NCBI RefSeq assembly: GCF_031127815.1
Contig: NZ_JARXHY010000020.1
Coordinates: 1-64,000, forward strand
Length of the DNA stretch: 64,000 nucleotides
Origin: Pelagicoccus sp. SDUM812003
GTDB lineage: Bacteria; Verrucomicrobiota; Verrucomicrobiia; Opitutales; Opitutaceae
Direction: 5' to 3'
The translations under genes were made by a program, and so were the position numbers. Positions 34,810 through 39,505 of this stretch are shown piece by piece. How positions within the stretch are numbered: the first letter of the stretch is position 1; each line of letters begins with the position of its first letter. The notes under the pieces are model-generated. The model was not told the DNA's origin. It worked only from the letters and a program-made list of their open reading frames with translations, and made no database searches.

Positions 34810-35586
34810 ATGACTAAGAACAAAGTAGTAATGTTAATCGCCGCAGGAATCGCTCTTGCTGGCCCTGCTGCGCTTAGCGCTGCCCCAGAACTCGCTGAAA
34901 CGCGCTCAGCCCTAAAGGAATGGGTGGAAATCAAGAAACTGATTTCCGAAGAGAGCAGCAAGTGGGTTGTAGAAAAGGAGACCCTCAACGAGTCCATAGA
35001 CCTCCTGCAGAAAGAGATCGACAAGCTGCAAGCCGCGATCGAACGACAGGAAGAGGAGCAGACCGACGCGGAACGCGTTCGCGCCGAGCTCACCAGGGAG
35101 GAAGAGGCTCTCAAACAAGCGTCCGCCATCGTTAAGAACAACATTGGCGACCTCGAAGCTCAGGCCTTGGAACTGGTCAAGTACCTGCCGAAGGCTCTCC
35201 AGTCCAAGCTGACCATCATCACTCAGCGCATCCCCAAGAACAAGCGCGAGATCGATGCCAGCACGCTTTCCAATCGTGTCATGAGCATCATCGGTATCCT
35301 GACCGAAATCGAGAAGTTCAACAGCCAGATCACCGTCGAAAACGAGATCCAGGACATCAACGGAGAAAAGGTTCGCGTCGACACCATCTACATCGGTCTC
35401 GCGGTCGCATACTACGTCGACGGCACCCAGACCGAAGCTGGCTACATGCTGCCCGCTAAGGATGGATGGACCAAGGTCCCCAACAACGCCCTTGCTCCGA
35501 AGATCGCCAACGCGGTGGCCATGCAGAAGAAGGAAATGACGGTCAACTTCGTCAATCTGCCGATCGAAATCACCGACATCCAGTAA
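34810..35586 (+). CDS. DUF3450 periplasmic coiled-coil protein
   Basis: A 258-residue protein with a signal peptide (1-24, cleavage near LSA-AP), a long heptad coiled coil (about 35-115), and a globular C-terminal half containing IYIGLAVAYYVDG, the hallmark of DUF3450. In gamma-proteobacterial Ttp/TonB2 systems, DUF3450 genes are the first gene of the TonB-energising operon. Here too it is first, followed 35 bp later by the ExbB-like gene. Expected to act in the periplasm with the extended ExbB-like subunit. Confidence 0.88.
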   Translation: MTKNKVVMLIAAGIALAGPAALSAAPELAETRSALKEWVEIKKLISEESSKWVVEKETLNESIDLLQKEIDKLQAAIERQEEEQTDAERVRAELTREEEALKQASAIVKNNIGDLEAQALELVKYLPKALQSKLTIITQRIPKNKREIDASTLSNRVMSIIGILTEIEKFNSQITVENEIQDINGEKVRVDTIYIGLAVAYYVDGTQTEAGYMLPAKDGWTKVPNNALAPKIANAVAMQKKEMTVNFVNLPIEITDIQ

Positions 35587-35621
35587 GGCGCGCCTGAAAC
35601 ACTTCGAAAGGATTTACTTCA

Positions 35622-37016
35622 ATGAAAGCTTTTAAGATTACATCATTCGTAGCCGCTGCCGTGATCGTGGCAGGCTCCGCCTTTGCTCAAAAGACCTTCG
35701 ATCAGGTGACTGCCGAAGCGAAAGCCGACCTAAAGGCGGCCGAGCGCGAACTCGCAGATCTCCGCAACCAGATCGCGAACGAAAAGGTGCCTATCTCCCG
35801 CCGTCTGACTCAGCTCGAGACCGAAGTTCAGGCCGCTCGCAAGGAATACGACGAAACGGTACTGGTCACTGAAAACAAGGACCTCAGCCTCGAATCCCTG
35901 CGCAACGCGGTCAAGGCTCACAACGACCAGAACGTCTACCTCAAGAACTCCATGGCCGCGTACGTGAAGCAGTTCTCCACTCGCATTCACGCTTCCGAGC
36001 TGCAGGAGTACAAGGAACTGGCGGACACTGCGGAGCTGCTCGCGGAAAACGACAACGCGACGGATTCCGAAAAGCTCTCCGCCCAGTTGGAAGTGCTCAA
36101 GGCCTCCCTCGGCCGCGTGAAGAAGATCATGGGCGGCACCATGATCCAAGGCGAAGCGCTCGGCAAAAACGGCGTGCAGGTTAACGGCACCTTCGTTTTG
36201 GCAGGACCATTCGCTTACTTCGGCGACGGAGGAGAAAACGTCGGCTTCGCCATCGGCGACCTCACCAACATCGGTTATCCCCTGGTCGAAAACCGCGGCG
36301 TGCCCGAGCCCGTGATGGCGGCCATCAGAGGCCTCACCGAAAACGGCAAGGGAGACATTCCCGTCGACCCGACCGAAGGCGACGCCCTGAAGATCGTTCA
36401 GGTCCAGGAATCCTTGGTCGAGCACATCATCAAGGGAGGTATCACCATGGTTCCTCTTCTCGGCATGGCCTTCTTCGCTCTGCTCATCTCCATTCTCAAG
36501 CTCTTCGAAATCAAGTCCGTCAAGAGCCCCAAGCCAGGCACGCTGCAGCGCATTCTCGACAGCCTCAACTCCGGCAACAAGCAGCAGGCGCTCGAAGCCG
36601 CCAACTCCGTTGACGGTCCCTTCGGCGATCTTCTCGTAGCCGGCGTCGAACACGCCGACCAGGAGAAGGAACTGCTCGAGGAAGTTCTCTACGAACGCCT
36701 CCTCGCAGCGCAGCCGAAGCTCGAACGCTTCATCGCCTTCATCGCCCTCACCGCCGCGGCCGCTCCACTACTCGGACTGCTCGGTACGGTTACGGGTATG
36801 ATCACCACCTTCAAGGCCATCACCGTGTTCGGTACTGGCGATCCCGCGACGCTCTCCGATGGTATCTCCGTGGCTCTGATCACCACCGAGTACGGTCTGA
36901 TCGTGGCGATCCCATGTCTGCTCTCCCAAGCGCTGCTCTCTCGCATCGCGAAGGGCAAGCTTGGCGAAATGGAACAGGCCGCAGTCGCATTCGTGAATGG
37001 ACTGAGAAACAAGTAG
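35622..37016 (+). CDS. TtpC-like MotA/TolQ/ExbB proton channel protein
   Basis: A 464-residue protein with a signal peptide (1-22, ending SAFA). A periplasmic coiled coil covers about 25-110, and a further periplasmic domain (110-260) includes an AGPFAYFGDGGENVGFAI segment. The C-terminal MotA/TolQ/ExbB channel domain has TM1 near 270-292 and two helices near 372-395 and 415-440, with the conserved LLGLLGTVTGMITTF and GISVALITTEYGLIVAIP segments. The long N-terminus is the TtpC arrangement. It forms the proton channel with ExbD. Coupled to DUF3450 upstream; two exbD genes follow. Confidence 0.92.
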   Translation: MKAFKITSFVAAAVIVAGSAFAQKTFDQVTAEAKADLKAAERELADLRNQIANEKVPISRRLTQLETEVQAARKEYDETVLVTENKDLSLESLRNAVKAHNDQNVYLKNSMAAYVKQFSTRIHASELQEYKELADTAELLAENDNATDSEKLSAQLEVLKASLGRVKKIMGGTMIQGEALGKNGVQVNGTFVLAGPFAYFGDGGENVGFAIGDLTNIGYPLVENRGVPEPVMAAIRGLTENGKGDIPVDPTEGDALKIVQVQESLVEHIIKGGITMVPLLGMAFFALLISILKLFEIKSVKSPKPGTLQRILDSLNSGNKQQALEAANSVDGPFGDLLVAGVEHADQEKELLEEVLYERLLAAQPKLERFIAFIALTAAAAPLLGLLGTVTGMITTFKAITVFGTGDPATLSDGISVALITTEYGLIVAIPCLLSQALLSRIAKGKLGEMEQAAVAFVNGLRNK

Positions 37017-37168
37017 GAAGATCCTTTGATCTACGGGAACGAAACAGGGGAACCGAAATGAGCGACTTTGCAAGACCGACGTCACCGATTCGATCTCCCC
37101 GCGCTCCCCTTCCAGGGCCCACCGGCCGCTGGAGCCAAGCGATCAATTCAAAAGGAAGATAAACGACC

Positions 37169-37579
37169 ATGATGAAAAACAAGAAAGCTCTTTCAGCAGG
37201 CGAAGCCGTCGGAGATATCAACATCTCCCCGCTGATCGATATGGTGTTCATTCTTCTGATCTTCTTCATTGTAACTACTGTTTTCGTTAAGGAGCCGGGC
37301 GTGGAAATCACCCGTCCAGCCGCTGTGAACACTGTCAATCTGCCAAAGAACGTTATCCTCATCGCCGTTACGGACCAGGATAACATCTTCTACGGCGGTC
37401 GAGACTACGGGCTTGGAGGCATCCGCTCCCAGGTTCGTCGAGTGCTCGCGGGCAACGAAGATTACCCAGTTATCATTCAAGCTGATCAGAACGCTCGTTC
37501 TGGGACGGTCATTCGTCTCATCGATGAGTGCAAGCTGGCCCAGGCCAGACGCATTCACCTTTCAACCGTGAAGAACTAA
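37169..37579 (+). CDS. exbD: ExbD/TolR-family protein 1
   Basis: A 136-residue ExbD with one TM helix (about 22-45) in NISPLIDMVFILLIFFIVTT. D24 corresponds to the essential proton-relay aspartate of ExbD. The periplasmic domain (50-136) has the beta-alpha pattern with VIIQADQNARSGTVIRLIDECK. It pairs with the ExbB-like protein to use the proton gradient. The next gene is a second ExbD only 7 bp downstream. The 152-bp gap before it is too small for a separate exbB. Confidence 0.93.
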   Translation: MMKNKKALSAGEAVGDINISPLIDMVFILLIFFIVTTVFVKEPGVEITRPAAVNTVNLPKNVILIAVTDQDNIFYGGRDYGLGGIRSQVRRVLAGNEDYPVIIQADQNARSGTVIRLIDECKLAQARRIHLSTVKN

Positions 37580-37586
37580 TAAGAAG

Positions 37587-38000
37587 ATGAGAAACAGAGG
37601 AAATCTAAGATCCAGCGATGATACCACGGACATCAACATCTCCCCGTTGATCGACATGGTGTTCATCCTCCTGATCTTCTTCATCGTCACCACGGTCTTC
37701 GTCGAAGAAGCCGGCCTGCAGGCCAATACGCCTGACCCGACCAGCAACCCGAATCAGGACAACGAGAAGGAACGCGTGAGCTTCCTCGTCCGGGCCAACG
37801 GTCAGGTGATCTACGACGATAAGGACGTCGGCGTTAGCGCCGTAGCGGGCATTGTCGCCCCCGAGATGAGAATGGAAGAATATCCAATCACCGTAAACGT
37901 CGAGCCGGACGTCCCCATGCACTTGGTGGTCGCAGTCGTCGACGCGTGCGAAAGCGGTGGCGCTCCACAAGTCACCATGAAAGCCGTTGCCACGAAATAG
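37587..38000 (+). CDS. exbD: ExbD/TolR-family protein 2
   Basis: A 137-residue paralogue of the preceding protein. The membrane helix and proton-relay aspartate (D23) are almost identical (DINISPLIDMVFILLIFFIV), but the periplasmic domain differs, containing SNPNQDNEKERVSFLVRANG and VNVEPDVPMHLVVAVVDACE. Near identity of the helix at DNA level plus divergence of the rest suggests tandem duplication followed by specialisation. It could form a heteromeric stator pair with ExbD 1. Confidence 0.93.
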   Translation: MRNRGNLRSSDDTTDINISPLIDMVFILLIFFIVTTVFVEEAGLQANTPDPTSNPNQDNEKERVSFLVRANGQVIYDDKDVGVSAVAGIVAPEMRMEEYPITVNVEPDVPMHLVVAVVDACESGGAPQVTMKAVATK

Positions 38001-38037
38001 CTACACATAACCGAAAACTTTTAGAAATTTAGTCACA

Positions 38038-39438
38038 ATGATTAGCAGCAAATCCTTAAAACTGGCCGCAACCGGCCTAATCTGCTTTGCCGGATGCCTG
38101 ACCGCATCGGCGCAGTATAAAACGGATCAGGAATTTTGGAATCAGCCACACATTGCTAAGTCCTTCGCCAATTCCTACGAAATCAAGACCCAGACCGAAC
38201 CTGACCTCACCGAAGAGGAACAGATCGCGGTCAAGCAGGTGCTGGACATGCTCAAGGCCGATCCGCAAGGCAGCAAGGACGCAGCCCTGGCAGCCATCCT
38301 GAAGGTCATCACCCCCGACTCCAGCGCCGCCCTCGATTTCATCGCCGGCAACTTCTACGCTGAGAAAGGCGATCTCAAGACCGCCATCAAATACTACGAC
38401 CAGGCCGCCAAGAAGTTTCCCAGCTTCCTTCGCGCAATCCGCAACGCCGCCATCATGCGCGTCCAGCAAGGACAGTATTCCGCGGCGTTGAAGGGCTTGA
38501 CCAGAGCGATCGAGCTTGGAGCCAAGGACACCACCACCATGGGTCTGCTTGGTCTATGCTATGTCAATACCGAGCAATACTTCTCCGCAGAGACGGCCTA
38601 TCGCGAAGCCATCGTGCTCGACCCGACGGTCAAGGACTGGCAGCTTGGTCTCGCCAAGTCCCTGCTGCAGCAGGCCAAGTACAAGGAGTCCATCGCGGTC
38701 CTCAACCAGATGCTGGTGAACGATCCCGAAAGCGACATCCTTTGGTCCAGCGTCGCGAATGCCTACCTCGGTATCGACGATCCAGAAACCGCTGTCGCAG
38801 TGCAGGAAATCGTGGATCGACTCGGCAAGGCGACCCCTGATTCCCTCGTCTTCATGGGCAACATCTACATGTCTCGCGGCCTGAACGATTTGGCGCTCAC
38901 CTACTTCAAGCGCTCGATCGCCATGGATTCAAACCAGGATCCTCAGGTTCACGTGAACATCGCCGAAGTGATGACCGCCCGTGGCGCCTACGATCAGGCT
39001 ACCCAAGTCATTTCTGACATTCGCTCGTCCTTCGAGCCAAAGCTGACTCCGGAAAACAAGCTTTCTCTGCTCCGTCTCGAAGCGCAGATCGCTCTTGCGA
39101 CCCAGCAAGGCGAAAAGGTCATCCCGATCTTGGAAGAGCTCATCGAACGCGATCCGCTGGACGGCCAAGCTCTCCTGCTCCTCGCGGACTACTACTCCAA
39201 CAAGCAGGACATCGATGGATACGCTCGCGCCGATCTCTACTACGAACGCGCCACCAAGGTACGCGAGTGGGAAGTCCGCGCTCTGATCTCCTGGGCGCGC
39301 TCCTTCGTGGCTCGCGAGAAGTTCGGCAAAGCGATTCCTTTGCTGGAAAGAGCTCAAGTCCTCCAGTCTCAGGAGCACATCGGGCGCTATCTCGAGCAGG
39401 TTCGCAAGGTTCACCTGGCCCAGCTCGGCAGCAAGTAG
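38038..39438 (+). CDS. Periplasmic TPR-repeat protein
   Basis: A 466-residue protein with a signal peptide (1-25, cleavage after SAQ; a lipobox is not clear). About ten TPR units cover about 85-450, for example LKTAIKYYDQAAKKFPSFLRA, YFSAETAYREAIVLDPT and NDLALTYFKRSIAMDSN. TPR proteins close the Ttp-type TonB operons, and this gene closes the operon here, 37 bp after exbD 2. It probably acts as a periplasmic assembly or partner-binding scaffold. Confidence 0.9.
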   Translation: MISSKSLKLAATGLICFAGCLTASAQYKTDQEFWNQPHIAKSFANSYEIKTQTEPDLTEEEQIAVKQVLDMLKADPQGSKDAALAAILKVITPDSSAALDFIAGNFYAEKGDLKTAIKYYDQAAKKFPSFLRAIRNAAIMRVQQGQYSAALKGLTRAIELGAKDTTTMGLLGLCYVNTEQYFSAETAYREAIVLDPTVKDWQLGLAKSLLQQAKYKESIAVLNQMLVNDPESDILWSSVANAYLGIDDPETAVAVQEIVDRLGKATPDSLVFMGNIYMSRGLNDLALTYFKRSIAMDSNQDPQVHVNIAEVMTARGAYDQATQVISDIRSSFEPKLTPENKLSLLRLEAQIALATQQGEKVIPILEELIERDPLDGQALLLLADYYSNKQDIDGYARADLYYERATKVREWEVRALISWARSFVAREKFGKAIPLLERAQVLQSQEHIGRYLEQVRKVHLAQLGSK

Positions 39439-39473: not shown

Positions 39474-39505
39474 AAAGGCGGAAGCTTCTCAGCTTCCGCC
39501 TTTTT
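39474..39505 (+). terminator. Rho-independent terminator of the ExbB/ExbD operon
   Basis: A perfect 13-bp stem, AAAGGCGGAAGCT and AGCTTCCGCCTTT, with loop TCTC, followed by T residues. It lies 36 bp after the TPR gene stop and is largely symmetric, so it could also serve the opposite strand. Confidence 0.95.

Follow-up and report, generated by a model that had tools for sequence, protein, structure and literature searches.

The window analysed here is the 64,000-nucleotide stretch of Pelagicoccus sp. SDUM812003 (contig NZ_JARXHY010000020.1, positions 1 to 64,000), and the system in question is a five-gene energising operon of the Ttp type (Table 1). A first-pass annotation of the letters had described a tightly packed set of DUF3450, a long ExbB-like protein, two ExbDs and a tetratricopeptide repeat (TPR) protein, in which the places of tonB and of a stand-alone exbB are empty, and both the open reading frames (ORFs) and the Pfam matches agree with the gene set described. 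The intergenic gaps span 7-152 base pairs (bp), being 35, 152, 7 and 37 bp in gene order; therefore neither an exbB nor a tonB gene can hide between the five genes, as had been argued, and we rejected a concealed gene as an explanation. The terminator proposed to close the operon was also recovered, as a stem with a T-rich tail. Note that a terminator scan of the window is weak evidence taken alone, with 6 terminator-like sites compared to 6.2 expected in shuffles; the other five sites have 5-6 pairs each, as against 13 in this stem. No promoter-like site for the operon was found in the sequence scan, and signal peptides were assessed by eye only.

Table 1. Genes and features of the focal operon, of its flanks and of the second cluster (window positions unless a contig is named).
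Feature	Length (amino acids)	Position	Strand	Basis or remark
DUF3450 / TtpB-like periplasmic protein	258	34810..35586	+	PF11932, E 8.9e-26; first gene
TtpC-like ExbB paralogue	464	35622..37016	+	PF01618, E 1.6e-28, residues 333-451
ExbD1	136	37169..37579	+	PF02472, E 2.2e-26
ExbD2	137	37587..38000	+	PF02472, E 7.8e-21
TPR protein, TtpD-like	466	38038..39438	+	TPR families (Pfam); last gene
Intrinsic-terminator-like stem-loop ending the operon		39474..39503	+	13 pairs, 7 G-C, T-rich tail
Upstream neighbours lysS, lipA, ridA				RidA-type gene by Pfam; lysS and lipA by recognition of ORFs
Downstream neighbours uvrB, dctA (a transporter)				By recognition of ORFs
ExbB-TonB-TonB cluster	203, 217, 215	C11:85.8-88.0 kb	-	Contig C11 of the same genome

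The operon is readily compared with the TonB2/Ttp system of Vibrio, which the excerpt of PMC6957404 at hand gives as ttpB2-ttpC2-exbB2-exbD2-tonB2-ttpD2, with all six parts reported essential. As far as that excerpt goes, the same protein classes occur in both, with TtpB first, TtpC second, then ExbD, and the TPR protein TtpD last; unlike the Vibrio system, the focal operon lacks exbB and tonB, for which we propose a second locus below, and it has two diverged ExbDs instead of one. The source genome itself offers closer references. The search for tonB and TonB-dependent receptors that had been proposed as a check returned 35 TonB_C, 22 MotA_ExbB, 16 ExbD and 48 receptor Plug matches in its 5.75 Mb, and with these TonB_C and Plug matches a TonB-free genome was rejected. 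Seven other operons of this genome read DUF3450-TtpC-ExbB-ExbD-TonB-TPR (contigs C9, C18, C6, C3, C13, C21 and C14). The focal operon keeps their order apart from the missing genes, whereas in these seven ExbB, one ExbD and TonB stand together; the focal TPR protein matches their TPR proteins. Four of the seven TonBs match the Pfam TonB_C family only under its cut-off, and a hydrophobic helix and a Pro-rich stretch are present in all six whose sequences were read.

A survey of the class gave at least 67 places with a long TtpC, 60 of which were fetched: the focal operon (L096), two cut by contig ends (L097 and L148) and 57 that were counted. TonB is present in 64/64 of the other Ttp operons that are long enough (these 57 and the seven of the source genome). 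Two ExbDs together with ExbB and TonB occur in 8/57, and 7/57 have TonB and no detected stand-alone ExbB (L146, L147, L149, L151 and L153-L155; in L147 the ExbD went undetected as well). Among 20 further intact operons ExbB is found in all and TonB in 19, the contig of the remaining one (L259) ending inside ExbD. The loci L146, L149, L151, L153, L154 and L155 group as a single deep clade in both the TtpC and the ExbD tree, and they are possible natural TtpC-only channels.

The TonB-less type is conserved. A focal-type TtpC (E <= 1e-150) was found in 27 of 252 family genomes, and all 25 focal-type operons whose downstream side can be read, the window's among them, have TtpC-ExbD-ExbD-TPR with neither ExbB nor TonB, so that the positions called empty by the first-pass annotation are empty throughout (two loci whose contigs end after TtpC, L178 and L186, are excluded from the count). 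Sixteen named relatives (Pelagicoccus, DG1235, K14 and Opitutales metagenome-assembled genomes, MAGs) share the operon; as far as the contigs reach, it lies in the lipA-uvrB neighbourhood in all of them but L040, where uvrB is missing. The 27 genomes fall into sub-clade A (21 genomes, operon at the lipA/uvrB locus in those with visible flanks) and sub-clade B (6 genomes, operon elsewhere), which together form one TtpC clade with a Shimodaira-Hasegawa-like approximate likelihood ratio (SH-aLRT) support of 99, and of 99/98 in the bootstrapped tree.

This conservation bears on the explanation that the operon is a decaying or redundant Ttp copy from which exbB and tonB were lost. With seven complete Ttp operons in the genome one copy could be dispensable, and the equivalent of the channel residue Glu-176 has been lost in the window's genus, but the frames are intact, TtpC is 60-81% identical between genera, the lipA/uvrB surroundings persist to the extent just given, and the trans-membrane helix is identical in both ExbD paralogues. 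Together these features point to selection for function, and we regard decay as very unlikely.

A second cluster, on contig C11 of the same genome, probably encodes the missing ExbB and TonB; there an ExbB gene is accompanied by two TonB genes, and no ExbD, TtpC, DUF3450 or TPR gene was found within a 10 kb stretch. The first of these TonBs (TonB1) matches the profile of the Ttp-operon TonBs at 7e-51 and shows a Pro-rich stretch after a hydrophobic helix. Among the TonB_C proteins that were read, those of the seven operons and the two of C11 are the only helix-anchored, proline-rich ones; a TonB_2 protein on contig C5, which belongs to an ExbB-ExbD-TonB_2 set, was left out of this reading. A V-T-V-T stretch lies ahead of the TonB1 proline block and is not an exact fit to the D-box pattern as given in the excerpt of PMC10907165. 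Stray TonB_C proteins were also considered as partners and rejected, since most of those fetched look like either exported proteins whose only domains are TonB_C or a fusion to an M56 peptidase, as judged from hydrophobicity and by eye.

The two halves occur in the same genomes. C11 TonB1 at E <= 1e-45 is found in 24 of the 27 focal genomes and in 0 of the other 225, and C11 ExbB at E <= 1e-60 is found in the same 24 and likewise in 0 of the 225. ExbB lies beside TonB and without ExbD at 23/24 loci, the cluster of G632 being split over contigs. Moreover, both halves are present in 18/18 focal genomes that are at least 95% complete; the three genomes without a C11-type match are the MAGs G636, G599 and G568 (93, 75 and 80% complete, respectively). 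Across 273 genomes drawn from the order, the five that carry the focal TtpC are also the five with the C11-type ExbB (E <= 1e-60). Looser limits give TonB matches in 88 genomes at 1e-15 and ExbB matches in 27 at 1e-30; the weaker TonB matches, down to 1e-15, were inspected in part, and the best outside matches, in G468 and G470, lie within intact ExbB-ExbD-TonB-TPR operons. The first-pass annotation had named, as something that would refute its reading, a demonstrated TonB partner at a distant locus that co-evolves with the operon in every case; what we find on genomic evidence comes close to it, at 24/27 versus 0/225.

We consider it likely that a Ttp (TonB2-type) energiser is split over two chromosomal loci, with the focal operon as its TtpB-TtpC-ExbD1-ExbD2-TtpD half, and that the two halves have been inherited together. 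The trees and distances are consistent with this. The focal TtpC groups among the TtpCs of complete operons, and the split ExbBs form a clade of their own (100/99 in the bootstrapped tree), as the split TtpCs do. Each split clade is joined in a larger group by the same 21 intact operons (TtpC, 37 rows, 95/84; ExbB, 35 rows, 96/86), which are the f2 and f74 operons of the family plus 12 operons from other families of the class; this group excludes the four complete operons of the source genome that were included (L048, L049, L052 and L053). Matching of lineages by tree covers ExbB and TtpC only. The final TtpC and ExbB trees omit 25 distant or long-branch loci (L050, L051 and L055 of the source genome among them) and near-duplicates, and the final ExbB tree also omits L222 and L223; the first TtpC tree omits L056, L097 and L148, and a later one a further 17 loci as well as most duplicates from named genomes. 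Bootstraps were run for the first TtpC tree and the final TtpC and ExbB trees only.

Pairwise distances were compared in 18 genomes, 16 of which have UvrB. With the UvrB distance removed, the distances of the five focal genes still follow those of ExbB and TonB1 of the second cluster, at a partial r of 0.65-0.82 (16 genomes), compared to 0.10-0.25 for the control LipA and 0.45-0.50 for the control DctA against the same cluster.

The matching ExbB lineage also bears on a channel made of TtpC alone with ExbD1/ExbD2, for which TonB would be borrowed from another Ttp operon and the C11 cluster would be unrelated. Arrangements without an ExbB apparently occur, in the seven class-survey operons with TonB and no detected ExbB, and the equivalents of the channel residues Thr-148 and Thr-181 are invariant in the focal TtpCs; however, an ExbB of matching lineage is retained in 24/27 genomes, and this explanation leaves the C11 ExbB and TonB without any adjacent ExbD. 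We judge it unlikely. Of the three options offered at the outset, namely TtpC as the only channel subunit, a distant TonB, or a motor for something else, the distant TonB is favoured and is extended to a distant ExbB, and the first loses weight, since the genome has an ExbB of matching lineage.

TtpC carries about 330 residues ahead of its MotA/TolQ/ExbB channel domain, to which the PF01618 match is confined. Its numbering by E. coli ExbB was inferred from an equal-length profile match to 5sv0 (354-443 = 115-204) together with an alignment. By this numbering, TtpC keeps the equivalents of Thr-148 and Thr-181 (T389 and T422), which are invariant in 13/13 aligned focal TtpCs, and has Val417 in place of Glu-176. 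In the window's genus, 8/8 genomes have Val at the Glu-176 position of both TtpC and the split ExbB; of the other clade-A genomes for which both genes were available, 11/11 have Glu in both. ExbB Glu-176 is described as essential in the excerpt of PMC8599685, which makes its loss from both proteins in the window's genus notable. The genus bears on the question whether Glu-176 is needed, as both of its channel subunits have Val there while the Thr-148 and Thr-181 equivalents of TtpC and the Asp of both ExbDs are kept. The N-terminal region of TtpC (window 35622-36400) shows a weak likeness to the DUF3450 protein (34810-35586) in a profile comparison (E 2.3e-4, probability 45), and N-terminal DUF3450 domains in such A subunits are mentioned in the excerpt of PMC12505986. 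The AlphaFold2 model of TtpC, with a mean predicted local distance difference test score (pLDDT) of 45, was unusable.

ExbD1 D24 aligns to E. coli ExbD Asp-25, and this trans-membrane Asp is invariant in 21 aligned ExbD rows of both types. ExbD1 is closer than ExbD2 to the single ExbD of the complete Ttp operons. In ExbD2 the periplasmic domain has diverged, and the trans-membrane helix is the one identical to that of ExbD1. ExbD2 forms its own clade (SH-aLRT 99-100) and has a single origin (99) despite the swapped order of the ExbD genes in clade B; the tree does not show one clade for the ExbD1 type.

The divergence of the window's ExbD2, which is just 33-39% identical to nine aligned ExbD1s, would suit a motor that drives another envelope process without any TonB. 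The AglRQS gliding motors are thought to drive an envelope process in this way. However, all five proteins here are of the Ttp class, TonB is present in all the other Ttp operons long enough to show it, no vWA gene was seen adjoining the operon (RidA of the flanks by Pfam, the others by ORF recognition), and a complementary TonB cluster co-occurs, which makes a TonB-free motor improbable. No tolA, tolB or pal was recognised among the ORFs of 30-44 kb, RidA being the one flanking protein run against Pfam. The same is thought of the tolQ-tolR-tolR-vWA clusters of the Planctomycetes-Verrucomicrobia-Chlamydiae (PVC) group. As given in the excerpt of PMC12204202, these resemble the focal operon in combining one channel subunit with a heterologous pair of ExbD/TolR type and in having a TPR gene, and differ in having a vWA transducer for TonB and, in the genes listed in that excerpt, neither TtpC nor DUF3450.

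For the split energiser, we infer complex formation, ExbD pairing, proton flow and substrates as follows. The operon would belong to one Ttp/TonB2-type energiser that was split once. The channel for protons would be a pentamer of ExbB and/or TtpC subunits enclosing two ExbDs, most likely one ExbD1 paired with one ExbD2; the ExbDs, set in motion by the proton flow, would pull on TonB from the C11 locus, and the pulled TonB would open TonB-dependent receptors in the outer membrane. More tentatively, and with the odds somewhat against it, the two-locus motor may have an obligate ExbD1/ExbD2 heterodimer in a mixed TtpC/ExbB channel that works in Pelagicoccus without Glu-176 equivalents.

Several observations weigh against the split system or its details. 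ExbB or TonB could also come from the seven complete Ttp operons of the genome. The genome searches scored the top candidates per genome only, and the tandem pair of non-Ttp ExbDs at C5:248.4-249.3 kb, taken as a control, is found in 21 of the 27 focal genomes plus G572; since this pair is similarly restricted and the 27 genomes are maybe one species clade, the co-occurrence may rest on a single origin. The larger tree group was chosen after quick trees had been viewed, and the nearest sister within it differs, being the f2 operons for TtpC (89/85) and nine class operons for ExbB (74/79). In earlier trees with other rows, the f2 operons were placed elsewhere (TtpC) and the split ExbB was unresolved beside operons of the source genome (ExbB). 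The controls are not free of correlation either, given the values of DctA with the cluster and an r of 0.51 for LipA with TtpC. There was no receptor among the four neighbours of the C11 cluster that were searched, and no shared motif or promoter was seen when the upstream regions of the two halves were compared. Finally, of four TtpC/ExbB pairs in clade B, two are Glu/Glu at the Glu-176 position and the other two combine Glu (TtpC) and Val (ExbB), and the ExbBs of many complete operons also lack this Glu, so that only its loss in TtpC is unusual.

On the split reading, a motor that seemed to lack TonB can be tested as a two-locus system for which candidate partners are named. The case is also a caution that gene order alone is insufficient to call an energising operon TonB-free, and it provides a natural case for two questions, the role of a second ExbD and the real need for ExbB Glu-176. 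We found no report of a split Ttp system in searches of an open-access library, subscription papers being outside this scope. Two ExbDs in one Ton system are known from Sphingobium, and Xanthomonas has a similar gene set. The Sphingobium operon, tonB1-exbB1-exbD1-exbD2 (excerpt of PMC8599685), shares the paired ExbDs with the focal operon and differs in having, as given there, four genes only, with no TtpC, DUF3450 or TPR gene and with TonB and ExbB adjacent.

Other TonB and ExbD oddities were noted in this genome. The tandem non-Ttp ExbD genes used as a control (L062, C5:248409-249283) lie beside the argininosuccinate lyase gene, with no ExbB in the 10 kb read, and one ExbD of the pair matches in 22/252 family genomes. 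As a source of ExbD for the C11 cluster this pair is weakened as a candidate: five genomes have the C11-type cluster and no match to the pair at 1e-20, three of them 97% complete (G438, G633 and G430), the others being G632 and G600. On the same contig, at C5:33997-34347 (L063), a solitary Ttp-like ExbD gene that contains an in-frame TAG and is perhaps a pseudogene stands beside genes that by eye are MoxR/DUF58/VWA-like.

Upstream of the C11 exbB, at C11:88203-88222, a TACA-NN-TGTA palindrome is present in 8/8 genomes of the genus; we take it to resemble BlaI/MecI operators. A fuller GACGTACAA-TGTAGGA block is found there in seven of the eight, and, with up to 3 mismatches allowed, this block matches nowhere else in this genome. 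Apparently exported proteins at C3:47000-52000 (L160) and C17:89000-92000 (L158) have several tandem TonB_C domains and lack the usual anchor-proline layout. A further protein, at C10:188000-191500 (L157), is of the M56/BlaR1 type fused to a TonB_C domain, and its C-terminal domain is 60% identical to that of C11 TonB1.

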